A DNA stretch of 64,000 nucleotides from Bacteroidota bacterium (GCA_021796215.1 JAJYOK010000001.1:310001-374000), one strand, 5' to 3'. Numbered from the stretch's first letter, positions 52,595 to 64,000 are shown. Program-made: numbers and translations. Notes: generated from the letters alone by a model not told the origin.

Positions 52595-52813
52595 CCTTGA
52601 TTACTAAAAGCCAATACCTAATACCTACGACTTGTTGTGGGGTACTGACAAAAAGGAGCGGTAAAAAGTTCTTGAGAGAGGAAAAAAATACCGCCGCTGT
52701 ATTCCATATTGTTAAATATGTTCTGTTTTTCAGCTGTTTGCTCTTGGCATAATTTATGACACATCGTAAGTCAATTCGCGCTTCAACACTCACTAATCTT
52801 TTTCACTTAACAT

Positions 52814-52820
52814 AGGAGGT
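52814..52820 (+). promoter_or_regulatory. Perfect Shine-Dalgarno site of the major pilin-like gene
   Basis: AGGAGGT lies 4 bases (AGGAGG, 5 bases) before ATG 52825. Most genes in the window have weaker sites, so high translation is likely. The in-frame TAG at 52813-52815 fixes this ATG as the start. Confidence 0.85.
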
Positions 52821-52824
52821 TATT

Positions 52825-53211
52825 ATGGGTCAACAGCAGCTTCTTCTCATCATCTTGGGCGTTATCATTGTTGGTATCGCCATTGCCGTTGGTTTGAGCA
52901 TGTTCAGCGCTCAAAGCGTGCAGGCAAACAAGGATGCCCTTATTGCCGACTTGAATAATATTGCGGCAAATGCGTACCAATACAGAATTCGTCCCGCCTC
53001 TTTGGGTGGCGGCGATCAGGCTTATACCGGATATACCATTCCGAGCAAGTTAGCATCGAACGAGAATGGGACTTATACAACTACTGCAGTAGCTGCTCAG
53101 AGTGTAAACATCACGGCAACAGCTGCTTCCAACTCTGCCAATACAGTAACCGCTGTTATTGATAGCACCGGCAGGCTTACAACTTTGGCTTACACCGGCG
53201 AGTTCAAATAA
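52825..53211 (+). CDS. Probable major pilin-like protein without a leader peptide
   Basis: 128 residues. The protein begins MGQQQLLLIILGVIIVGIAI, so the hydrophobic N-terminal helix of a type IV pilin starts at residue 5 with no charged leader. An in-frame stop (TAG 52813-52815) three codons upstream of the ATG excludes a longer start. If a prepilin peptidase cut after Gly2, the mature protein would start Gln-Gln-Gln and lack Glu5. After the helix come AQSVQANKDALIADLNNIAANAYQYR, the usual pilin alpha-1 continuation, then a Gly/Thr/Ser-rich globular part. A perfect ribosome-binding site and tandem terminators suggest abundant expression. Pilin identity rests on fold pattern and pilC/pilB neighbours. 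Confidence 0.7.
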   Translation: MGQQQLLLIILGVIIVGIAIAVGLSMFSAQSVQANKDALIADLNNIAANAYQYRIRPASLGGGDQAYTGYTIPSKLASNENGTYTTTAVAAQSVNITATAASNSANTVTAVIDSTGRLTTLAYTGEFK

Positions 53212-53234
53212 AATTTTTTGTTGAAGAAGACAGT

Positions 53235-53267
53235 CTCCACGTCCAAAGTGGAGGCCATTTTGTTTTT
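53235..53267 (+). terminator. First terminator after the pilin-like gene
   Basis: CTCCAC (53235-53240) pairs with GTGGAG (53248-53253), 7-base loop, followed by ATTTTGTTTTT. The stem sequence recurs in the hairpin at 36509. Confidence 0.65.
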
Positions 53268-53270
53268 CGC

Positions 53271-53304
53271 TCGGTCCCGTAAACAACGGGATCGGGCTTT
53301 TTTA
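53271..53304 (+). terminator. Second, tandem terminator after the pilin-like gene
   Basis: TCCCGT (from 53275) pairs with ACGGGA just downstream, with further G/C pairing, and ends in CTTTTTT at about 53298-53304. Together with the first it would insulate pilC from pilin transcription. Confidence 0.6.
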
Positions 53305-53507
53305 TGACCCCTTCTTTATCTCCCCCTACAGGGGGAGAATTAAAATTCCCTCCATGGTGAAGAGATGGTTCCGCCTCAAAGTTCCAAAGGAATCCTTTTG
53401 GGAGCGGAAAGCACCTTATGAATTTGTTGACGTGGATTATTGCTTTTGGTTGTAGGCAATTGTATCTTCACGGTAACGATTAACAGTTGATTAAAGGGTT
53501 AAGAGTT

Positions 53508-54896
53508 ATGCCTGAATTTCGAATCGAAGGCGTGTCCTTGAGCGGCAAAGCTGTTCAGGGGGTTATCAGCGCTGATACGATGAAAGCAGCGAAGGAACGT
53601 GCCCAGCAAATGGCACGCGACCGGAAATTTAAGCTTTCGGCTGTCCGGGCGCGCTCTGGCTTTCTCTACCGTGTAAAAAAAGAAGGGGAAAAGAAACCGA
53701 TTGACGGCGAGCAAAAAGCATTTTCTAAAGAGGAGGTTGTTGATGCTCTCTCGAAAATGGGGTACAACGTTATTTACGTGCGGAAAAAATTATTTGAATC
53801 AGTCGGCAAAGTGCCGCAGACTGAAGTCGTTTCGTATGTACGTGTAAGCGCAGATTTGATCAAGCAGAAGCTTCCTTTCAATGAAATGATGTCGCTCCTT
53901 ATCAATGATATTGAAAATAAAACCCTGCGTGAATGCCTTCGCGATATCAATCAAGAATTGAAGCAGGGTAAAGACAGCGAAAAAACGTTCATCAAACATG
54001 AAAAGGAACTGGGAAAATTTGCGGCGCACATGCTCGGGCTTGCCTCGAAAAGCGGAAACATGGCAGACATTTACGAGAGCACGGCGAAATTCCTTGAACG
54101 GACTGCTGAGTTCAAAAAGAATTTGAAAAGTGCGCTTATTATGCCGGTTGTTACGTTGTTCATTCTTTTCATCGCAGTGGGATATTATGTTGCGTACATT
54201 TTCCCTACAACGGCAAAGCTGTTTGCGAAATTCAAAATTGAATTGCCGCCAATGACGAAGGCAACGCTGAAACTTTCCGATTTTATCACGAGCAACATTC
54301 TGTGGCTGACGCTGGCAATGGTGATTCCGATCGTGGTGTTTCTTCGGTTTATCACAACGGAGAAGGGGCGCTATCTGTTTGATAAAAACATTTGGAAGCT
54401 TCCCGTGATGGGTAATTTATTGCACAAAACAAGTATCGAGATTTTCTGCCGGGTTTTTTATTCATTGTATTCCGGTTCGGGAGAAAATATTGAAGTTATC
54501 CGTTTGGCAGCGGAAGCGTGCGGTAATAAATACATGGAAAGCCAGATCAAAAATGTTGCGCTTCCATTGATGGTGGAAAAAGGAATGGGCATCACGGAAG
54601 CGTTCGAAGCGTGCGGCGTGTTCACGAAGACTGCGATCTCCCGCTTCCATTCCGGCGCAGAGACCGGCACCGTGAAGAATACCGCTCTTCAGCTTGCAGA
54701 CTACTATGAGAAGGAAACAGGTTACCGCATGAAGAACGCGATAGATATGATTCAGCTTGCTATTTCAATGATCATTATGGTGGTGCTTACCGCTTTAACA
54801 CTTGTATCATCTGAAACTGCGACGCTTAAACCGAAACCTCCGAGTAGCGGCTGGCTGATACCGTACGCACATTCGCTTATGCGTTTGTTATTCTAA
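53508..54896 (+). CDS. pilC: Type IV pilus inner membrane platform protein PilC (GspF family)
   Basis: About 462 residues. ATG 53508 is preferred (MPEFRIEGVSLSGKAVQGVISADT is the standard GspF/PilC start); the frame opens at 53487. Two GspF domains are separated by the membrane helices ALIMPVVTLFILFIAVGYYVAYIFP and ILWLTLAMVIPIVVFLRFI, with a last helix (MIQLAISMIIMVVLTALTLV) near the end. Conserved pieces: FIKHEKELGKFAAHMLGLASKSGNM and GVFTKTAISRFHSGAETGTVKNTALQLADYYEKE. The N-terminal extension seems to contain the small lead-in motif twice. It anchors the ATPases PilB and PilT. pilB starts 15 bases later. Confidence 0.9.
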   Translation: MPEFRIEGVSLSGKAVQGVISADTMKAAKERAQQMARDRKFKLSAVRARSGFLYRVKKEGEKKPIDGEQKAFSKEEVVDALSKMGYNVIYVRKKLFESVGKVPQTEVVSYVRVSADLIKQKLPFNEMMSLLINDIENKTLRECLRDINQELKQGKDSEKTFIKHEKELGKFAAHMLGLASKSGNMADIYESTAKFLERTAEFKKNLKSALIMPVVTLFILFIAVGYYVAYIFPTTAKLFAKFKIELPPMTKATLKLSDFITSNILWLTLAMVIPIVVFLRFITTEKGRYLFDKNIWKLPVMGNLLHKTSIEIFCRVFYSLYSGSGENIEVIRLAAEACGNKYMESQIKNVALPLMVEKGMGITEAFEACGVFTKTAISRFHSGAETGTVKNTALQLADYYEKETGYRMKNAIDMIQLAISMIIMVVLTALTLVSSETATLKPKPPSSGWLIPYAHSLMRLLF

Positions 54897-54911
54897 AAGG
54901 AGTTATGACGT

Positions 54912-56699
54912 ATGCCTGATGTAGATATTACTGATAAAATCGGTTATACACTTTTGAAGAAGGGGATTATTGATTACGAGACGCTTGAAAAATCTCTGAG
55001 CGTTAAAGAATCGGAAGCGAACAAAAAAGAGCGGCGTAATCTCGGACAAATTTTGGTTTCAGAATTCAATGCGGACCACGATGCGGTTTTTCGTGAAGTT
55101 GCCAACCTCTATGCATTCCGGGAAATTTATCTCACCGATGAAAATATTGATGCAGCGAGAATAGAGTTCATCCGCAAAATGGTGGATACGCTGCAGAACG
55201 GAACGCGCGATATGCTCATCCAGACAAAAATGCTTCCGCTGAAGTTTGACGAGAAGCAGCCCGATAAGCTGATTGTTGTTGCGGCTGACCCCACCGACCG
55301 CGCGATTCCGAACGTTGTGCGTAATTTCAACGTGAAAAAATATGAAGTGACCTATGTGCGGCTAAAGGATTTGCAAGGGCTTCTCGAACAAGTCATTCCC
55401 CCACAAAATGAATTTCTTAAGCTTCTTGAAGATACACAGATCAGTGTTGAATCTGAAGGTGATGATGCAGGGCTTGATGAAGAAGCACTCGAAGCGGAAA
55501 TCAACAAAAGCGCTCTGGCGAATCTTATTGAGGGTGCCATTGTTGAAGCCGTGCGGCGTGACGCGAGCGATATTCATATTGTTCCCGCCGAAGGTAACAA
55601 GACAAATTTTTTGTTTCGCATTGACGGAGATTTGCAACTCTGGCATTGTCAGGAAAATACGATGCCGGAAGCGGTGCTTGCCGTTGTTAAAGACCGGACG
55701 AAAGGCGTTGATAGATTCGAGCGCGAAATGTCGCAAGACGGTTTTATCCAGCGCGTGATTGACGGACATCAACTTCGTTTTCGTGTTTCAATTATGCCGA
55801 TCGTGACGACAGAGTTCAAGCATAAATTTGAAAGCGTCGTGATCCGTGTTTTGGATGATCGAAAAGTAATTACCGATCTTAATAAGTTGGGGTTACAAGG
55901 TCCTGCAAGAGGATCGTTTTATAAAGCCATCGAAAAACCTCAGGGCATCATTATTCTTACAGGACCGACAGGCTCCGGAAAATCTACAACGCTTATCGCC
56001 GCGTTATATCAAGTTATTAATCCGACCGTGAACGTGCTGACCATTGAAGAGCCGGTGGAATATATTATCAGGGGTGCAAGACAATTGAAAATCGGCACAA
56101 AGATGTCCTTCGAACAATCCATCCGCGGCATTCTTCGTCACGATCCTGATATCGTGCTGGTTGGAGAAATGCGTGATAAAGTTACTGCCGAAACCGCCAT
56201 CAAATTGGCGAACACCGGTCACTTGGTTTTTTCCACGTTACACACTAATGATGCGCCAAGCGCCGTTGCACGTTTGTATAAAATGGGAATTGAACCGTTC
56301 CTTATTGCATATGCCATTAACATTATTGTTGCTCAACGTTTGATACGAACATTGTGCAAGACGTGTAAGCAGCCTATTGATGATGATGAGAAAAATGACT
56401 TGATCAAATTCGGGTTCACGGAAGAAGACCTTGCCCAACACACGTTCTACAAAGCTGTCGGTTGCGATAAGTGCAGCGGCGGATACAAAGGGCGGGCGGC
56501 TATTCATGAAGCGCTTTATTTTACGAAGGCAATCAAGAATATTGTTCTTAACGCCGGCGAAAAGGTTGATGAGAATGCAATCCGTGATCAGGCAATGAAA
56601 GATGGCATGTGGACGCTGCGCCGCTCCGGCATGGAGCGGATGAAAGAAGGAACAACGACACTTGAAGAAGTCATCGCCAATACCGTTGAGGACGATTAG
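54912..56699 (+). CDS. pilB: Type IV pilus extension ATPase PilB (GspE family)
   Basis: 595 residues. The N-terminal MshEN/T2SSE_N region (DKIGYTLLKKGIIDYETLEKSLS, NLYAFREIYL) is followed by the hexameric ATPase core. Walker A is GPTGSGKST at 351-359, the Asp box LTIEEPVEY, Walker B DIVLVGEMRD, and the His box NTGHLVFSTLHTNDAPSAVARL. Two CxxC pairs (CKTCKQ and CDKCSGGYKGR) form the zinc site that separates PilB/GspE from PilT. It powers pilus polymerisation at the inner membrane. A ribosome-binding site AAAAGGAG precedes the start. Confidence 0.95.
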   Translation: MPDVDITDKIGYTLLKKGIIDYETLEKSLSVKESEANKKERRNLGQILVSEFNADHDAVFREVANLYAFREIYLTDENIDAARIEFIRKMVDTLQNGTRDMLIQTKMLPLKFDEKQPDKLIVVAADPTDRAIPNVVRNFNVKKYEVTYVRLKDLQGLLEQVIPPQNEFLKLLEDTQISVESEGDDAGLDEEALEAEINKSALANLIEGAIVEAVRRDASDIHIVPAEGNKTNFLFRIDGDLQLWHCQENTMPEAVLAVVKDRTKGVDRFEREMSQDGFIQRVIDGHQLRFRVSIMPIVTTEFKHKFESVVIRVLDDRKVITDLNKLGLQGPARGSFYKAIEKPQGIIILTGPTGSGKSTTLIAALYQVINPTVNVLTIEEPVEYIIRGARQLKIGTKMSFEQSIRGILRHDPDIVLVGEMRDKVTAETAIKLANTGHLVFSTLHTNDAPSAVARLYKMGIEPFLIAYAINIIVAQRLIRTLCKTCKQPIDDDEKNDLIKFGFTEEDLAQHTFYKAVGCDKCSGGYKGRAAIHEALYFTKAIKNIVLNAGEKVDENAIRDQAMKDGMWTLRRSGMERMKEGTTTLEEVIANTVEDD

Positions 56700-57003
56700 C
56701 TTCAAGCGCATGATGTGAGATGCGGCACAGCGTGGGAAACAGCACTTTTCCATTTTGAATCATCCCAAAGCAAAGAATTGTTAGAAAAGGCACGTCTTTT
56801 TTTGTGTGATGAGTGCTGATAAAGTCCAGACATAAACCGAGTCAAAATTTCCTGTTTGACAACTCCACCCGGGGAATTTTGAAGATTCTACAGTCTTGTT
56901 GAAGGAAGAAGTGGTCTAGCGAGCCGCAAGAGGTGTGTTTATTCCGGCACATTCCTTGCACTGAGTGGTGCCAAAGTCTACAATAGTTTAATTAGAAACG
57001 CGT
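56700..57003. other. Gap between pilB and the minor pilin genes
   Basis: 304 bases without a gene. It holds the sigma-54-type promoter listed next. A TTGACA at 56856 has no matching -10. GGCAC (56946) and GTGCC (56968) could pair in the same area. Confidence 0.5.
56945..56960 (+). promoter_or_regulatory. Sigma-54-type (-24/-12) promoter of the minor pilin operon
   Basis: CGGCACATTCCTTGCA matches the -24/-12 consensus TGGCACG-N4-TTGCA closely: GG at 56946-56947 and GC at 56958-56959 are separated by exactly 10 bases. The transcript would begin near 56971, about 33 bases before the ATG at 57004. An overlapping TTGCAC-N17-TACAAT (56956-56984) is a weaker sigma-70 alternative. Confidence 0.6.
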
Positions 57004-57495
57004 ATGGGTCAGACACTTTTAGTGTTAGGAGCATTGGTCCTTCTAGGGATTGCAGTGTTGGCTGCAAATAAATTAATGCTGGAAAAGCTTACTGGCTCAT
57101 ACGATACACAAGCAACGGTTGCCGCGATTTCGCTGGCACAAGCAGAAATAGATGAAATCCAGCGCAAAGAATTTGATGAGAATTCGATTGCGAAGCGAAT
57201 ATACTACGCAACAGATATGACGCCCGTCAGTTCGTTGGGACCCGATGTCGGAGAAACATCACGCAGTTTGTACGACGATGTGGATGACTACAACAATGAT
57301 ACAACAATGACTTCCACACCGACGTTAGACGATTTTACTGAATCATGCAAAGTGGAATATGTTAACGAATCCGATCCTGACGAGGTTTCATCAACCCAAA
57401 CATTTTACAAACGTATTACTGTTACTGTTACGCATCCAAATATGACATATCCCGTGGTTATGAAGGCGCTAGTAGTTTACCGACGCTTTTTCTAA
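57004..57495 (+). CDS. Minor pilin-like protein, leaderless
   Basis: 163 residues, starting MGQTLLVLGALVLLGIAVLA, so the hydrophobic helix begins at residue 4 with the same Met-Gly-Gln start as the major pilin-like protein. An in-frame TAA at 56989-56991 excludes a longer N-terminus. The remainder (LAQAEIDEIQRKEFDENSIAKRIYY, then acidic and beta-rich parts ending FYKRITVTVTHPN...VVMKALVVYRRFF) is like a pseudopilin in length and layout, but I do not recognise a named family. It is the first of three short genes, 12 bases before the next. Probably a tip or priming component. Confidence 0.6.
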   Translation: MGQTLLVLGALVLLGIAVLAANKLMLEKLTGSYDTQATVAAISLAQAEIDEIQRKEFDENSIAKRIYYATDMTPVSSLGPDVGETSRSLYDDVDDYNNDTTMTSTPTLDDFTESCKVEYVNESDPDEVSSTQTFYKRITVTVTHPNMTYPVVMKALVVYRRFF

Positions 57496-57507
57496 GAGAT
57501 GTAAAGC

Positions 57508-58077
57508 ATGACGGCAATACTTGATATTATCCTGTCATATATTATCGGAGGCATACTGCTTCTGATGATTCTTACTGTGAACGCAAATCTCACCAATGTC
57601 GCTTTCCAAAGCTCATTGGATTATCAGGCAGAGACGAATGCTATGAGCGTCGGGCAAATCTTCGAATATGATTTCTACAAAACCGGCTATCATGCCACAA
57701 GCCCGAAGATTACATATGCCGACACTGCAGCAATTACCTTCAAAGCCGATCTTCAGAATGTTGGTACGGTGAATACCGTGGCGTATTTTATTGGCACTAC
57801 CGCTGATGCAGCTGCTACTCCGAATCCTAATGACTTCCCACTTTACCGGCAAGTGGATGGTGCATCTGCAGCAAAAAGCTATTATGGCCTCACATGGCTG
57901 AAGTTCACATACTATGATTCGTCAGGAACAGAACTGAGCACGCCGATGACGCTCACATCGGACCTTGAGAAAATAAAATCAATACGCGTGCAAGCGACAG
58001 TTCAATCTACCTTTCCCGTAGACTCTACATATTCTTCTACATACTGGGAGCGGACTTTTTTCCCAATGAACTTGTGA
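57508..58077 (+). CDS. Minor pilin-like protein (PilW-like layout), leaderless
   Basis: 189 residues. It begins MTAILDIILSYIIGGILLLMIL, a hydrophobic helix starting at once; TAA at 57502-57504, two codons upstream, excludes a leader. The region after the helix (TNVAFQSSLDYQAETNAMSVGQIFEYDFYKTGY) and the later beta-rich part (ITFKADLQNVGTVNTVAYFIG, LEKIKSIRVQATVQST) resemble PilW/GspJ-type minor pilins in order of elements, an inference from pattern only. It lies between two other pilin-like genes, with 12- and 13-base gaps. Confidence 0.6.
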   Translation: MTAILDIILSYIIGGILLLMILTVNANLTNVAFQSSLDYQAETNAMSVGQIFEYDFYKTGYHATSPKITYADTAAITFKADLQNVGTVNTVAYFIGTTADAAATPNPNDFPLYRQVDGASAAKSYYGLTWLKFTYYDSSGTELSTPMTLTSDLEKIKSIRVQATVQSTFPVDSTYSSTYWERTFFPMNL

Positions 58078-58090
58078 AAGGATTATCACG

Positions 58091-59077
58091 ATGGGCAGAA
58101 CGGCAGTATTAATGGTAATCGGTTTGAGCGTTATCATCGGATTTTTTACACTCAAGTTGAACAGCACAAGTTCGAATGCGGTTAAAGCCTCGGTGCAACA
58201 ATATAATTTTTCAATGGCGCGCAATATTGCTCATAGCGCTGTCAGTATTGTTTTACATAAAATACAAACGGATAGATACACAACCTCTTTTTCCGGAACG
58301 TTTGATAACGGCTCTTATTCCGTTTCGAAATCACAGGTTGGTGATACTATTTGGTTAAGCGTTACTTCTACTTATGAGGATACGGCGCTCAGCATGGACT
58401 TGAAATTGCTGCAGTATCCGAAACCGTTTCCGAAAACGAATGCAGCGGTTGGCTTTGCTTCGGACAGTATCAATTTTTCAATGAGCGGAAGCCCGCAAAT
58501 AAGCGGCCAAGATAGGAACACCGACGGTTCTTCAGGCCCGAGTCCGACATTACCGGCAGTAACAGTTCCGACAGCCTATGATTCTTCGAATGTTGCACCG
58601 TACAGCAGCTACCTCACCGGCAGCCCGAAAGTTGCGGTTTCCGATTCCATTCCACAACCTCAAGATTACATTGACGAATATTTCGCTGACGCAACGGTTA
58701 CTTTCCCATCCAGTGTAAGCGGGGGCGATACGTACGGTACCGCGACAGAACCTGCCATTGCAGTTCGCGATGGAGATTTGAGTCTGAGCGGAGGTACGAC
58801 GATCTATGGTATCTTAGTGGTAAAAGGAAACCTCACAATTTCCGGCTCGGTGAGAATTTATGGCATTGTAATTAATTATGGAAGTAACGTGACTGTGAAT
58901 ATAACTACAACCACAGGGACACCAAAGATTTATGGTGGTTTTTTAATGGCGGGTCCGCCGCATGCCTCTTTTACAATGAAAGGAAATGGATATTATACTT
59001 ACAGCTCCCAGGCGTTAGACAATGTTAAAAATGGTTCCACTTTGCTTGCTTACCACGTCTTTGAATGGTGGGAATAA
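58091..59077 (+). CDS. Minor pilin-like protein (PilX-like layout), leaderless
   Basis: 328 residues starting MGRTAVLMVIGLSVIIGFFTL, a Met-Gly plus hydrophobic helix with no leader; an in-frame TGA seven codons upstream, with no ATG, GTG or TTG between, fixes the start. Near residues 45-60, ARNIAHSAVSIVLHKIQTDR is the kind of helix seen in PilX/GspK proteins. The C-terminal part is a run of short turns (AIAVRDGDLSLSGGTTIYGILVVKGNLTISGSVRIYGIVINYG), a parallel beta-helix-like or PilX-type domain. It closes the minor pilin operon. Confidence 0.62.
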   Translation: MGRTAVLMVIGLSVIIGFFTLKLNSTSSNAVKASVQQYNFSMARNIAHSAVSIVLHKIQTDRYTTSFSGTFDNGSYSVSKSQVGDTIWLSVTSTYEDTALSMDLKLLQYPKPFPKTNAAVGFASDSINFSMSGSPQISGQDRNTDGSSGPSPTLPAVTVPTAYDSSNVAPYSSYLTGSPKVAVSDSIPQPQDYIDEYFADATVTFPSSVSGGDTYGTATEPAIAVRDGDLSLSGGTTIYGILVVKGNLTISGSVRIYGIVINYGSNVTVNITTTTGTPKIYGGFLMAGPPHASFTMKGNGYYTYSSQALDNVKNGSTLLAYHVFEWWE

Positions 59078-59184: not shown

Positions 59185-60495
59185 ATGCAACTGCCAAGCA
59201 TTGCTAACGATAATGAGAAATTAATGGAGACCACTGCCACACAGCCTATTACGGCTTCAGGTAACAGCATGAATACGCGGGCGCAGGAATTATTGCATGG
59301 TTTGCTGGCGCAAATTCCAGAAAGTACGTTTGGACTTGAACGGTTGATGTTTGCAGGTGACCTCGTAGAAAAACTTCCCATCGAAGACAAAGCAGTCCTT
59401 CGTGCGCAAATGAATGTTTTCTTGTCGCGCATGTTCGGTATTAATGCCTCAGATATTGATATGGGGGGATACGGATCCAAAAGTCAAGTCTGGTACAGAA
59501 TTTTCGGATCGAAAAAACCCGATGCCTCAATTCAGAAAATTTCTCCCGATGAAACGAATATCTTGATTTTTTCTCTTCTCATGCCGCGTCAGAAACAATT
59601 TCTGTATGAAAACAAGAATCTTGATTTTTCTTACACCATTCAGGAAAGCGACGGAATGCGCCGCTTCCGTGCAGATGTGTATCTTGATCTTGACCAGATC
59701 GCGCTGAATATGCGCGCAATTAATACCTCCATTCGTCCGTACAAACTGCTTGAGCTTCATCCCAACATTACAAAAACGATCAGTCTTGCTCACACTAAAG
59801 AAGGGTTGACGCTCGTTACCGGTATTACCGGCTCAGGAAAAAGCAGCACGCTCGATTCAATGATTGATTTGAATAATCATACCGTTGACGGGCATATTGT
59901 CATTATTGCTTCGCCGATCGAGTACGTGCATGAATCGGATCGCTGCATTGTTCGTCATCGCGAAGTTGGGCGCGATGTGCTTTCATTCAAGGAAGGAACA
60001 ATTCAGGCACTGCGGCAGGACCCGGATATTATCGTCATCGGCGAAATGCGCGACCCGGAGACAATTATGACGGCGTTGGAAGTGACCGACAGCGGTCATA
60101 AAGTCTTTTCAACATTGCACACCGCTTCGGCAGTCGAAAGCATTGACAGGATTATCGGTGAAATTCCGCCGATTGAGCAGGAGCGTGTGCGCAATCGCCT
60201 TGCCGACGCGTGCCGCTGCGTCATTTCTCAAAAACTTATTCCGAGCCTCGATGGAAAACGGGTGCTCGCACGTGAGGTTATGCTTATGACGCCGTCGGTT
60301 CGTTCGGCAATCAAAAATAATAATACCGGAGAAATTTATCAGATGATTCAGGAATCCGGTGAGATGGGAATGACAACGATGGAGCAGGATTTGCGGCGCC
60401 TTTTCCTCCAGAAGAAAATTTCACTTGAAACGGCGATGAACTTTGCCAACAACAAAAAGCGAATGCAGCAGCTTCTTGCTTCTAATATTTCGTGA
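59185..60495 (+). CDS. pilT: PilT-like retraction ATPase
   Basis: 436 residues, longer than usual PilT (about 345) because of an N-terminal extension of some 80 residues (TATQPITASGNSMNTRAQELLHGLLAQIP). Walker A is GITGSGKS at 213-220; Walker B DIIVIGEMRD; His box DSGHKVFSTLHTASAVESIDRIIGEIPP; then CRCVISQKLIPSL and VRSAIKNNNTGEIYQMIQESGEMGMTTMEQDLRRLF (the AIRNLI-type region). The Asp box reads Ala242-Ser-Pro-Ile-Glu246 where PilT normally has Glu-Asp-Pro-Ile-Glu. It lacks the zinc Cys of PilB. It would retract pili; the altered box may lower activity. ATG 59240 is an alternative start region. Confidence 0.85.
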   Translation: MQLPSIANDNEKLMETTATQPITASGNSMNTRAQELLHGLLAQIPESTFGLERLMFAGDLVEKLPIEDKAVLRAQMNVFLSRMFGINASDIDMGGYGSKSQVWYRIFGSKKPDASIQKISPDETNILIFSLLMPRQKQFLYENKNLDFSYTIQESDGMRRFRADVYLDLDQIALNMRAINTSIRPYKLLELHPNITKTISLAHTKEGLTLVTGITGSGKSSTLDSMIDLNNHTVDGHIVIIASPIEYVHESDRCIVRHREVGRDVLSFKEGTIQALRQDPDIIVIGEMRDPETIMTALEVTDSGHKVFSTLHTASAVESIDRIIGEIPPIEQERVRNRLADACRCVISQKLIPSLDGKRVLAREVMLMTPSVRSAIKNNNTGEIYQMIQESGEMGMTTMEQDLRRLFLQKKISLETAMNFANNKKRMQQLLASNIS

Positions 60496-60564: not shown

Positions 60565-62136
60565 ATGCCATATTCAAAATCAGAAGGGAAAATTGCAGTA
60601 GGCATTTTTGTTGACGGTCTTGACGTCAAGTTTGCACATGTTTCGTTTAAAAACAAACAGTTCAAGCTTGAAGAAGTAAGAACTGTCAATCTTGCCAAGA
60701 AATTGGAGGAGATTCACGCTGTTGAATCCTCGGCGCCTGAACTCGAAGGCATTGATGTGGTGGACACAGAGCCCGAGACGACTGACATGATGGAAGCAGT
60801 GCCGGAGGAAGAAGGGGGCGACAAAGAAAACAACCGCAGCATCTTGTATAGTTTGCTTTCTGATTTTCCCGCCTCTGCATACCAACTTGTTTATTCGATT
60901 TCTGAACCCTCAGTGTACTACCAAACATTTGAAGATTCGTTCGGTATGTCAGGTGCGAAACTGAAACGGAAGCTTGTTGAACAGCTTGCACAGGTTCGTA
61001 CAACAAAGCCGGATTTAGACGCAGTAGGGTACATTCCTGCGGCTGACGGACAAGTCTTAGCGATCATCCGGGAAGACGGGCTGAGCCTTCTTACACTTCT
61101 TGAGGACATCAAAGAATTTATCGGGCGTGTGCCGAAGATTCCTTTTCTTGAAACATCTGATGTTTCATTGATGAATCTTGTCCGCACCAATTACGAGTTG
61201 GGTGAAGAAGAAATTTCCGTGATTGTGTTCATTGGCAATGAGTTTAGCAGGTTGATATTCATGAAGGGGCCGTATTTTTTCCACTTCGCACCGGTCATCA
61301 GCGAAGGAAGGGCAACTCCAAACATTGAAAACACACTCTATTCCAGGATTTTGCTTGAACAGGACAGCGCCGGTATTATGCACATTGACCGGATCTTTCT
61401 TGCCGGCGAAGCTCATAAAGTGCAGTTGAAACAGTTCCTGTCCCCGCAATTCCCTGAATCGCCGATCGAATATCTTATTCCAGTTGCTCTCGATACAAAT
61501 GTAATTCCTGATAGTGTTGTCGAAATTACATCTGAGTATGCAGTGCCAATTTCCGCTGCGATGCGGGTTCTTGAGCCGAAGAATCCGTTCTACTATGCCG
61601 TTGATCTTCTTCCGCTTGCTTTCCATGAAGGACAAAAAGCCTTCAAGCTTGCATGGCATGGTTATTTGTTGATGCTGTTGATTTTTGCATCCACATTATA
61701 TTTCACAACACATATTGTCGGTACGAACCATAACATACAACTTGCGCGCACGGAGTTGCAGCAGAAAGAGCTTCAGCTATCGGAAAATCAGCGGCTTCAA
61801 ACAATTTTGGATAACCTTCAAGCTGAAAACCGAGGCTATGTCGGCGCCCTTGCGGTGTATGATTCGCTCGTTCCAAACTACAATCAGTGGAGCAAATTCT
61901 TTTATCATCTGACAAATGATCTTGATTTGGTGAAATCGGTATGGATAACAGACTTTGCCACGCACCCCGGAAAAGGTGTTGAGATGACTGGATATACCAC
62001 TGACCGCTCGAAAATTCCGGTGATAGCAAGCATGTTTCAAAAAACAGAATTGAAATCAGTTGAGCTGAAAGAAATCCGCGGTAAGATGGTGTATAAATTC
62101 GTTATGACAGTTGCACAAATAGATTCTGATCATTAA
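60565..62136 (+). CDS. PilM-PilN-like fusion protein (GspL-like layout)
   Basis: 523 residues. The N-terminal 345 residues are actin-like (IAVGIFVDGLDVKFAHVSFK, RSILYSLLSDFPASAYQLVYSISEPSVYYQTFED, SVIVFIGNEFSRLIFMKGPYFFHFAPVISEG), as in PilM. Then a membrane helix at about 360-382 (GYLLMLLIFASTLYFTTHIVG), a coiled coil (ARTELQQKELQLSENQRLQTIL) and a small periplasmic domain (YNQWSKFFYHLTNDLDLVKSVWITDF, MTGYTTDRSKIPVIASMFQ) matching PilN/fimbrial assembly. In most type IV pilus systems these are two genes; the single chain resembles GspL of type II secretion. It links the cytoplasmic ATPases to the periplasmic ring. Confidence 0.75.
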   Translation: MPYSKSEGKIAVGIFVDGLDVKFAHVSFKNKQFKLEEVRTVNLAKKLEEIHAVESSAPELEGIDVVDTEPETTDMMEAVPEEEGGDKENNRSILYSLLSDFPASAYQLVYSISEPSVYYQTFEDSFGMSGAKLKRKLVEQLAQVRTTKPDLDAVGYIPAADGQVLAIIREDGLSLLTLLEDIKEFIGRVPKIPFLETSDVSLMNLVRTNYELGEEEISVIVFIGNEFSRLIFMKGPYFFHFAPVISEGRATPNIENTLYSRILLEQDSAGIMHIDRIFLAGEAHKVQLKQFLSPQFPESPIEYLIPVALDTNVIPDSVVEITSEYAVPISAAMRVLEPKNPFYYAVDLLPLAFHEGQKAFKLAWHGYLLMLLIFASTLYFTTHIVGTNHNIQLARTELQQKELQLSENQRLQTILDNLQAENRGYVGALAVYDSLVPNYNQWSKFFYHLTNDLDLVKSVWITDFATHPGKGVEMTGYTTDRSKIPVIASMFQKTELKSVELKEIRGKMVYKFVMTVAQIDSDH

Positions 62137-62143
62137 GGTCGTT

Positions 62144-63040
62144 GTGTCGTACAAAATTCGAAATAGCATTGCATTAGGCGTTTTGCTTTTTCTCGTTTTT
62201 GTGGTTGGCGGATATGTCTCTTTTATCTCTCAGCCGGGAAAACTTAAGGGCATCGCCAAAGAATCGAAGCATGTTGAGAGTCAACTGCAGGATAAGGTAG
62301 TGCAGGAGAGAGCGATCAGCGACATGCAGAATACGCTGCGGGAAACTATTCACCGGTGGAATAACCGTTTGAAAGAAATTCCCCAGTTTGATATTTCCTC
62401 GCAAACGTACGGCTACTTGAGCAGAATTATTGACGAGAGCGGTTTCATGAAATTGAATATGTCGTTCAACGGAACGAAGTCACTCTCCAAATATGGATAT
62501 AATACATATCACATCATCGGCTCTGCGGAGTTCCCTAATATTTTCCGCTTCATGTGGTTATTGGAAAATGGCAGACGTTTGTACAAAATAACCACGATTG
62601 CGATGAAGAGTGAAGAGAAATTAGATACGGCAGGAAACCTTCCGACCATTCAGCTTAATTATGAAATGGATATTCAATCGTATTTTACATCAGAAAAATC
62701 CTTAAATACTCCGGTGATGAACCCCGATTCTACACCTGAGCCGATTACATCGAATCCGTTCGAACCATTTATTTTTGGAGAAGTGCCGAAGAACACAAGG
62801 AATCTCGTTGATGTTAGCAATCTTTCTGTGAAAGCTGTGGCTGATAGCAAAGCGCTCGTTATGGACGGCAGCGGCAGACTTATTACTCTGAAATTAGGAG
62901 ACCCTGTTTATCTTGGCAAAGTGGAAACCATCAATCCGGAAGACGGCTCGATCGTGTTCAGAATGAATCGCGGCGGCATTATAGACACCGTGAGGAAACA
63001 AATTATTTTTGACAAAATGCAGCGAGGCATGATGCAATGA
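62144..63040 (+). CDS. PilO-like protein fused to a PilP/GspC-like domain
   Basis: 298 residues from GTG 62144. A membrane helix (ALGVLLFLVFVVGGYVSFI) and coiled coil (VESQLQDKVVQERAISDMQNTLRETIHRW) lead to a ferredoxin-like PilO domain (YGYLSRIIDESGFMKLNMSFN, AEFPNIFRFMWLLENGRRLYKITTIAM). After a proline-rich linker near 195-210, the C-terminus (LSVKAVADSKALVMDGSGRLITLKLGDPVYLGKVETINPEDGSIVF) has the layout of the PilP/GspC homology domain that contacts the secretin. PilP is normally a separate lipoprotein. The stop overlaps the secretin ATG by 4 bases, which fits this interaction. Confidence 0.68.
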   Translation: MSYKIRNSIALGVLLFLVFVVGGYVSFISQPGKLKGIAKESKHVESQLQDKVVQERAISDMQNTLRETIHRWNNRLKEIPQFDISSQTYGYLSRIIDESGFMKLNMSFNGTKSLSKYGYNTYHIIGSAEFPNIFRFMWLLENGRRLYKITTIAMKSEEKLDTAGNLPTIQLNYEMDIQSYFTSEKSLNTPVMNPDSTPEPITSNPFEPFIFGEVPKNTRNLVDVSNLSVKAVADSKALVMDGSGRLITLKLGDPVYLGKVETINPEDGSIVFRMNRGGIIDTVRKQIIFDKMQRGMMQ

Positions 63041-64000
63041 AAACTTACCATTTACTCATTGTCTGTGCGGTACTGTTCGTTCTCCCGGCAGTGCAGGCAC
63101 AAACGCTCGGAGAGCGACATCTGCTGCTCAATCAATATATTTCGCCGGAAGAACTTGTTTCAATGTCGAAAACTCTTCCGTTTGATAAGGCAATTTCTAT
63201 CTTCAGTGATTTTAGTCAAAAATACATGAACAAGATTATTGTGGATCCGAAAGAGCGTAAGAATGAGATCGGCATTGACATTCAAAACATGTATTGGATT
63301 CAGGCGTTTGAAACAGTTCTGCGCGAAAACAACTTGTGGTATGTCGAGCGCGAAGAATATTTCCAAATCTATAATCCGGCAGATTCTTCTCAACAAACCA
63401 CCAAGCAACAGGCGCTTAGTGATACGGCAGGTATAAAATTGTTGAATTCGCGTGATGTAAAAATCTCGTCTGTTTTCTTTTCTGTTGATGTGGTGAAGTC
63501 GCTTAATGCCGGCATTAACTGGGATGTAATGTTCTCCCGCGATTCTTCGCAGCTGGGTCAACAATCGACCATTGTGAGTGGTAATTTAAATTCAGGAGTC
63601 ACAGATTTTACCAAGCAAAACCAGACAATTTCAGCAACAAACAATCAGCCGAATTTTGCAGTGAAGGTTGTTCCTTCGATCAATTTCACAAATCTTTCTG
63701 CGCTTATTTCATTTTTTCAGGACAATCAGCTCGGCGATGTTATTTCAAGTCCGCAGGTAACTGTAACATCGGGAAAAAAAGGCTCGATTCAGGTCGGGCA
63801 GATTTTTTACATCACGACAAAGGATTTTGCCGGTAATACCATCCAACAGCCGCAAAATACCGGTATCATTGTAGATGTGACTCCAACGGTGTATGAGATG
63901 AAGGGAATAAAGTTCATCAATCTTGACATTCATGCAGAACGCAGTTCTTTTAGCCCAGGTCCGATCATCAACACATCGACAGTGAATACAAGCACCGTGC
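63037..64000 (+). CDS. pilQ: Type IV pilus secretin PilQ (3' end outside window)
   Basis: The first 321 residues are present. The signal peptide is LLIVCAVLFVLPAVQAQ. Residues about 40-115 (FDKAISIFSDFSQKYMNKIIVDPKE, WIQAFETVLRENNLWYVEREEYFQIYNP) form one N-domain of the STN/N1 type. The secretin domain then starts directly: VKISSVFFSVDVVKSLNAGINW, LISFFQDNQLGDVISSPQVTVTSGKKGSIQVGQIF, TGIIVDVTPTVYE. These are the hallmark secretin beta-barrel and lip-region sequences. Only one N-domain is seen, fewer than in most PilQ/GspD proteins. The frame is open at the window edge. It forms the outer membrane channel for the pilus. Confidence 0.88.
   Translation, partial: MKTYHLLIVCAVLFVLPAVQAQTLGERHLLLNQYISPEELVSMSKTLPFDKAISIFSDFSQKYMNKIIVDPKERKNEIGIDIQNMYWIQAFETVLRENNLWYVEREEYFQIYNPADSSQQTTKQQALSDTAGIKLLNSRDVKISSVFFSVDVVKSLNAGINWDVMFSRDSSQLGQQSTIVSGNLNSGVTDFTKQNQTISATNNQPNFAVKVVPSINFTNLSALISFFQDNQLGDVISSPQVTVTSGKKGSIQVGQIFYITTKDFAGNTIQQPQNTGIIVDVTPTVYEMKGIKFINLDIHAERSSFSPGPIINTSTVNTSTV

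Follow-up and report, generated by a model that had tools for sequence, protein, structure and literature searches.

Type IV pilins are described as invariably displaying a class III signal peptide, and the prepilin peptidase is counted among five ancestral components (Pelicic 2023, PMC10191384). The MSHA (MSH) pilus is encoded by a locus without a prepilin peptidase gene, and genomes with this pilus always hold another system that bears the peptidase (PMC6668835). Denise et al. (2019) described the type II secretion system (T2SS)-like system of Bacteroidetes as peculiar (PMC6668835). The T2SS-like system of Cytophaga hutchinsonii, a member of the same broad phylum as the genome considered here, is related to type IVa pili (T4aP; PMC6668835) and has a Peptidase_A24 gene, CHU_3197 (PMC5553014). 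In the open-licence literature, we found no description of leaderless or PilD-independent pilins or of the MGQQQLLL motif, and no pilus system described in a genome without a prepilin peptidase. Here, we analyzed a stretch of 64,000 nucleotides from a Bacteroidota bacterium (GCA_021796215.1, JAJYOK010000001.1:310001-374000; hereafter the window) that contains a pilus locus with four pilin genes, starting at 52825 (the probable major pilin), 57004, 57508 and 58091. As judged from the sequence, these four genes encode no leader, and the leaderless start of the major pilin gene is conserved and not a product of chance.

The locus shares with T4aP the proteins PilB, PilC and PilT, a probable PilM/N/O/P-like frame, a PilQ-like secretin, a GspI/J/K-like trio and the pilin fold. 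It differs from T4aP in that its pilins lack a class III signal peptide (a hydrophilic leader ending in Gly or Ala), in that a prepilin peptidase is absent from the locus and undetected in most carrier genomes, and in that Gln takes the place of Glu near position +5. Unlike genomes with the MSH pilus, most genomes carrying the leaderless pilins have no other detectable peptidase-bearing system.

In all four proteins, the hydrophobic helix begins at once (52825, MGQQQLLL; 57004, MGQTLLVL; 57508, MTAILDII; 58091, MGRTAVLM). The original prediction had placed four pilin open reading frames at these positions with stop codons just upstream, and the sequence confirmed both: the nearest in-frame stops lie at 52813, 56989, 57502 and 58067 and leave 3, 4, 1 and 7 codons ahead of the starts, and ATG, GTG and TTG are absent among these codons. 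Among 120 unique closed homologues of 52825, 111 have an upstream in-frame stop no more than 10 codons away, and an upstream ATG was present in one. A Shine-Dalgarno motif precedes the start in 77 of 98 major pilin homologues, compared with approximately 10% of random positions. A hidden leader reached through an alternative start was ruled out by the upstream stops and the placement of this motif. Over the first 23 codons of the major pilin homologues, the entropy was 1.6 bits at third positions vs 0.16 bits at second positions; because third positions vary and second positions hardly do, it is the protein level that is conserved. In an alignment of 99 major pilin homologues built from fetched loci, M1 and Q5 were invariant and G2, Q3 and Q4 near-invariant.

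We searched related genomes for homologues of the Met-Gly-Gln start. Of 247 genomes sampled from the phylum, 87 contained a match to the 52825 product, and the matches almost always began at residue 1. Sampling of 12 further taxonomic families from across the phylum showed the same leaderless start. A leaderless pilin is also carried by 11 of 40 genomes of a second phylum, which was entered via a Calditrichaeota record, and the start was the same in the 10 carriers read. The leaderless pilin genes are often found in tandem, with 2 to 4 copies per locus (L061, L065, L073, L082, L084 and others; G120:C8:139372-141462), and the matches reach 7 per genome.

We then asked how A24-type prepilin peptidases (profile PF01478) are distributed among the carriers. 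A match above the cut-off was found in 10 of 79 plus 1 of 8 leaderless carriers, leaving 76 of 87 without a detectable A24 enzyme. The proposal of a distinct pilin class is supported on the scale of the phylum, in the form of a class without PilD-type processing. One such carrier is the named strain Stygiobacter electus (G247), whose genome gave no A24 match. Among genomes with PilC and no leaderless-pilin match, A24 was present in 33 of 36 when weak and divergent matches were counted (Fisher test, P about 4e-17, with relatedness ignored). Since PF01478 nearly misses the short, divergent A24 of Cytophaga-like genomes (157-165 amino acids, weak or missed; L123:1155-1649, L124:679-1149, L125:969-1460), we built a second model from this divergent form. 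It recovered five of five control genomes missed by PF01478, and in 75 carriers it returned chance-like fragments only, most with internal stops. For A24-type enzymes, this result rejects a PilD overlooked through divergence. The PilC of the genomes with the Cytophaga-like divergent A24 falls outside the clade formed by the PilC of the leaderless loci.

All 11 A24-positive carriers, the genome studied here included, hold a second T2SSF pair, that is, a second PilC. In the 10 A24-positive carriers tested, PilD lies within ~1.5 kb of a canonical prepilin (profile N_methyl) in every case, and the second PilC adjoins the canonical prepilin in every case. Contig C18 of this genome holds its single A24 peptidase and its single prepilin above the N_methyl cut-off. 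They share a locus (G000:C18, L037:1-8600) that has PilM-, ATPase- and secretin-type genes of its own, with a PilC close by, and constitutes a second, canonical leader-bearing system. The original prediction had named ordinary leader-bearing, Glu5-containing pilins used by the same PilB and PilC as contrary evidence; these were looked for and not found. Canonical N_methyl prepilins occurred in 12 of 80 genomes tested and, where followed, were part of a distinct locus that has a PilC and a PilD of its own. The canonical prepilin gene of C18 adjoins a gene for a type IX secretion system-type repeat protein. Two carriers have N_methyl-type prepilins and no detectable A24 (G046:C50:3444-3847 and G078:C6:31832-31903).

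The predicted gene content of the window locus is that of a type IVa pilus, and its features are as follows.

52814..52819, + strand: Shine-Dalgarno AGGAGG of the major pilin gene, 5 nt before the ATG; in-frame TAG at 52813-52815
52825..53211, + strand: leaderless major pilin, 128 amino acids, MGQQQLLLIILGVIIVG... (open reading frame, AF2 model, VIA-align)
53511..54896, + strand: platform protein PilC/GspF, with T2SSF twice (Pfam PF00482, E 4.8e-29; best NCBIfam match PilC/GspF)
54912..56699, + strand: extension ATPase PilB, with MshEN and T2SSE (PF00437, 8.8e-98; TIGR02538 PilB, 415 bits vs 375 for GspE)
57004..57495, + strand: leaderless minor pilin A, GspI/PilV-like (position, conserved trio, weak profile match)
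57508..58077, + strand: leaderless minor pilin B, GspJ-like, with an invariant Asp6 (AF2 model, VIA-align)
58091..59077, + strand: leaderless minor pilin C, probably GspK/PilX-like (position, N-terminal helix, large C-terminal domain, conserved trio)
59185..60495, + strand: retraction ATPase PilT (TIGR01420, 331.8 bits, cut-off 319.1; PDB PilT 2ewv, E 1.9e-71)
60565..62136, + strand: probable PilM-PilN fusion (position and layout; position kept in 28 of 80 fetched loci)
62144..63040, + strand: probable PilO/PilP-like protein, a putative PilO-PilP fusion (position kept in 27 of 80 fetched loci)
63037..64000, + strand: PilQ/GspD-like secretin (PF00263; TIGR02515 PilQ, E 2.3e-26; full open reading frame L038:13037-14296)

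The start codon of PilC is provisionally placed at 53511; the longest open reading frame begins at 53487. The product of 60565-62136 had no match in Pfam or in the PDB sequence search, and that of 62144-63040 had no Pfam family match. The secretin, whose open reading frame extends 296 bases beyond the window end, has PilQ as its best NCBIfam match, but below the PilQ cut-off. Just past the window, directly after the secretin, lies a gene (L038:14293-16995) for a 900-amino-acid protein that begins in a lipobox-like manner and contains repeated immunoglobulin-like domains, possibly a surface protein, which has relatives in 2 fetched loci.

Across the 80 fetched loci, the conserved order is pilin-PilC-PilB-[minor A,B,C]-PilT-PilM/N-PilO/P-secretin, and none of them contained a match to a prepilin peptidase (PilD); nor did any gene of the window locus. 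The minor pilin genes corresponding to 57004, 57508 and 58091 remain clustered in many loci, in some cases apart from the other genes and on the opposite strand. In the PilC tree, in which several long branches were flagged and the depth is uncertain, the PilC proteins encoded with leaderless pilins group in a single clade (support 100/100), separate from the PilC of canonical systems, including canonical PilC from the same genomes. A response regulator recurs in 16 pilus loci and a sensor-kinase-like membrane protein in 13 (L060, L073, L084, L087, L090, L093, L098, L099, L100, L106, L110, L111 and others); they are possibly PilR/PilS-like.

None of the four leaderless proteins of the window has a convincing Pfam family match, and the Pfam matches of the minor pilins and of members of the alignments were all weak or at chance level. 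We also compared predicted structures. The AF2 model of the 52825 product (mean pLDDT 91.6, from the 99 homologues) contains a helix spanning residues 2-55 and a four-stranded sheet, and the type IV pilin fold, a long N-terminal helix with a C-terminal antiparallel sheet, is present in this predicted structure. When the candidates returned by Foldseek were realigned with VIA-align, rows 1-16 were all type IV pilins, including meningococcal PilV (Z 10.7), Thermus PilA4 (Z 8.2) and full-length PAK pilin (Z 8.1). The GspJ fold is present in the predicted structure of the 57508 product (pLDDT 93.1, 17-sequence alignment), for which VIA-align rows 1-10, at Z 10.5-13.4, were minor pseudopilins of the GspJ type and TTHA1219 of Thermus, before a drop to 3.8 in the following row. 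The 57004 product matched NCBIfam PilV (TIGR02523) weakly, with an E of 0.057 and under the family cut-off. Because the trio stays together in the manner of the GspI-GspJ-GspK or PilV-PilW-PilX set, we infer the corresponding roles for 57004 and 58091. The four leaderless proteins are very probably true pilins.

Glu5 is common, but not universal, in major pilins. The statement that none of the four proteins has Glu5 is literally correct, but it overlooks that 57508 keeps an acidic residue at that place: all 17 of 17 homologues have Asp6, and a profile comparison with TTHA1219 (E 0.012) places this Asp, with no gap, on the Glu of the LLELLL motif. Structural alignment with the pseudopilus model 9a1f paired residue 2 of 57508 with residue 1. 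In the major pilin, the residues common at positions 2-7 across the 99 homologues include neither Glu nor any other acid, and positions 3-5 are Gln instead. Compared with canonical prepilins by hhalign, the major pilin alignment gave a weak match (E 0.015, probability 3%) that placed residue 7 at +6 with a 2-residue gap; Geobacter PilA (E 0.086) also aligned with a 2-residue gap, and VIA-align paired residue 4 of the 52825 model with residue 1 of full-length PAK pilin. Because these alignments are gapped or shifted, the register of the major pilin relative to mature +1 is fixed only within about 1-3 residues. We therefore claim no exact equivalence of its residues to mature +1; the register of 57508 is ungapped.

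Among the alternatives, the best surviving is that the locus makes a short T2SS-like secretion pseudopilus and no extracellular pilus. The match of the minor pilin B model to GspJ would agree with this, as would the finding that a Bacteroidetes system clustering with T4aP acts in secretion (PMC6668835, PMC5553014). However, T4aP also has GspI/J/K-like minor pilins, the locus PilT exceeds its curated cut-off and has crystal structures of PilT as its top matches in the PDB sequence search, and PilB scores higher against the PilB profile than against GspE. T2SS has lost PilT (PMC10191384), which is present here. The window trio resembles GspI-GspJ-GspK of T2SS in the predicted GspJ fold of 57508 and its acidic residue at +5, and differs in lacking a leader, in having PilT alongside and in confining the acid at +5 to the GspJ-like member. 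We consider a secretion pseudopilus unlikely.

It is rather improbable that a non-A24 peptidase or modifying enzyme matures the leaderless pilins. The absence tests covered A24-type enzymes, which leaves room for such an enzyme, but almost nothing is present on the pilins to cut, and a neighbour search found no recurring peptidase-like gene in the loci, in which the sensor kinase and response regulator were the clearest recurring extras. Still less probable is a minimal Met-Gly leader cut after Gly2 by PilD, as had originally been suggested, the enzyme here being that of contig C18. The conservation of Gly at residue 2 in 98 of 99 major pilins recalls Gly(-1) of prepilins, and this genome does hold one A24 peptidase. 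However, most carriers have no detectable A24, and the PilD of this genome is on another contig, alongside a prepilin and secretion-type genes of its own. Moreover, in the 57004 family neither Gly nor Ala is conserved before the conserved Gln (MSTYQ, MSSNQ, MNGIQ, MSGTQ), and in the 57508 family residue 2 is not a conserved Gly (T, S, A, N, Q, V). That the four proteins are no pilins at all, but unrelated membrane proteins adjoining pilus genes by chance, would fit the absence of Pfam matches and the weak Foldseek E of the major pilin, and is hardly credible in view of the VIA-align rows occupied by type IV pilins for 52825, the match of 57508 to ten GspJ-type entries far over noise, and the persistence of trio and pilin in the locus across families.

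The simplest reading is that no dedicated processing takes place. We propose that the locus encodes a type IVa-like pilus that can be retracted, and that its major and minor pilins would be translated essentially mature. The major pilin would insert into the inner membrane with its short uncharged N-tail inside and its globular domain outside. This N-tail lacks charged side chains and residues 25-45 carry a net charge of -0.8 on average, so that an N-in topology is weakly favoured. Prepilin peptidase would not act; at most, methionine aminopeptidase would take off Met1, which is possible because residue 2 is Gly in nearly all major pilins, and Gly at this position makes a good substrate for the enzyme. 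Several 57004 homologues start with Met-Asn, which methionine aminopeptidase leaves untrimmed, and Met trimming would thus not be uniform. The GspI/J/K-like trio would prime the filament, PilB and PilC would extend it, PilT would retract it, and the PilM/N/O/P-like frame would guide it to the PilQ-like secretin. The residues that probably substitute for Glu5 are Gln3-5 in the major pilin and Asp6 in the GspJ-like pilin.

Several points weigh against this proposal. The evidence consists of genes and predicted structures, and the topology signal from a short neutral N-tail is weak. Foldseek with the 52825 model was weak (best E 0.16, to a pilin); VIA-align, the locus and the minor pilin trio carry the case for this protein as a pilin. 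The absence test covered A24-type enzymes, and a profile search of this kind may miss an unrelated peptidase. In the second phylum, A24 was present in 6 of 11 carriers; the check for second systems covered the carriers of the first phylum. Finally, the genome counts are samples in which relatedness was ignored and some genomes are drafts. Taking these points together with the gene content and the models, we consider that the locus quite probably represents a real, conserved PilD-independent variant of type IVa pili.

It is likely, if slightly less so, that a widespread lineage of type IV pili, in Ignavibacteria/Bacteroidota-related bacteria and at least one further phylum, has dispensed with prepilin processing, its pilins being made mature, entering the membrane and polymerizing with an N-terminus that is unprocessed or only Met-trimmed, and that type IV filaments thus do not universally require the class III leader and the prepilin peptidase. 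If a system works with neither, the way in which type IV filaments are recognized would change, as searches that require the N_methyl/SPIII (class III signal peptide) motif or PilD miss leaderless systems. Such a system would also let the purpose of the leader, of its cleavage, of N-methylation and of Glu5 be asked, and Stygiobacter electus, as a named-strain carrier, makes direct tests possible.

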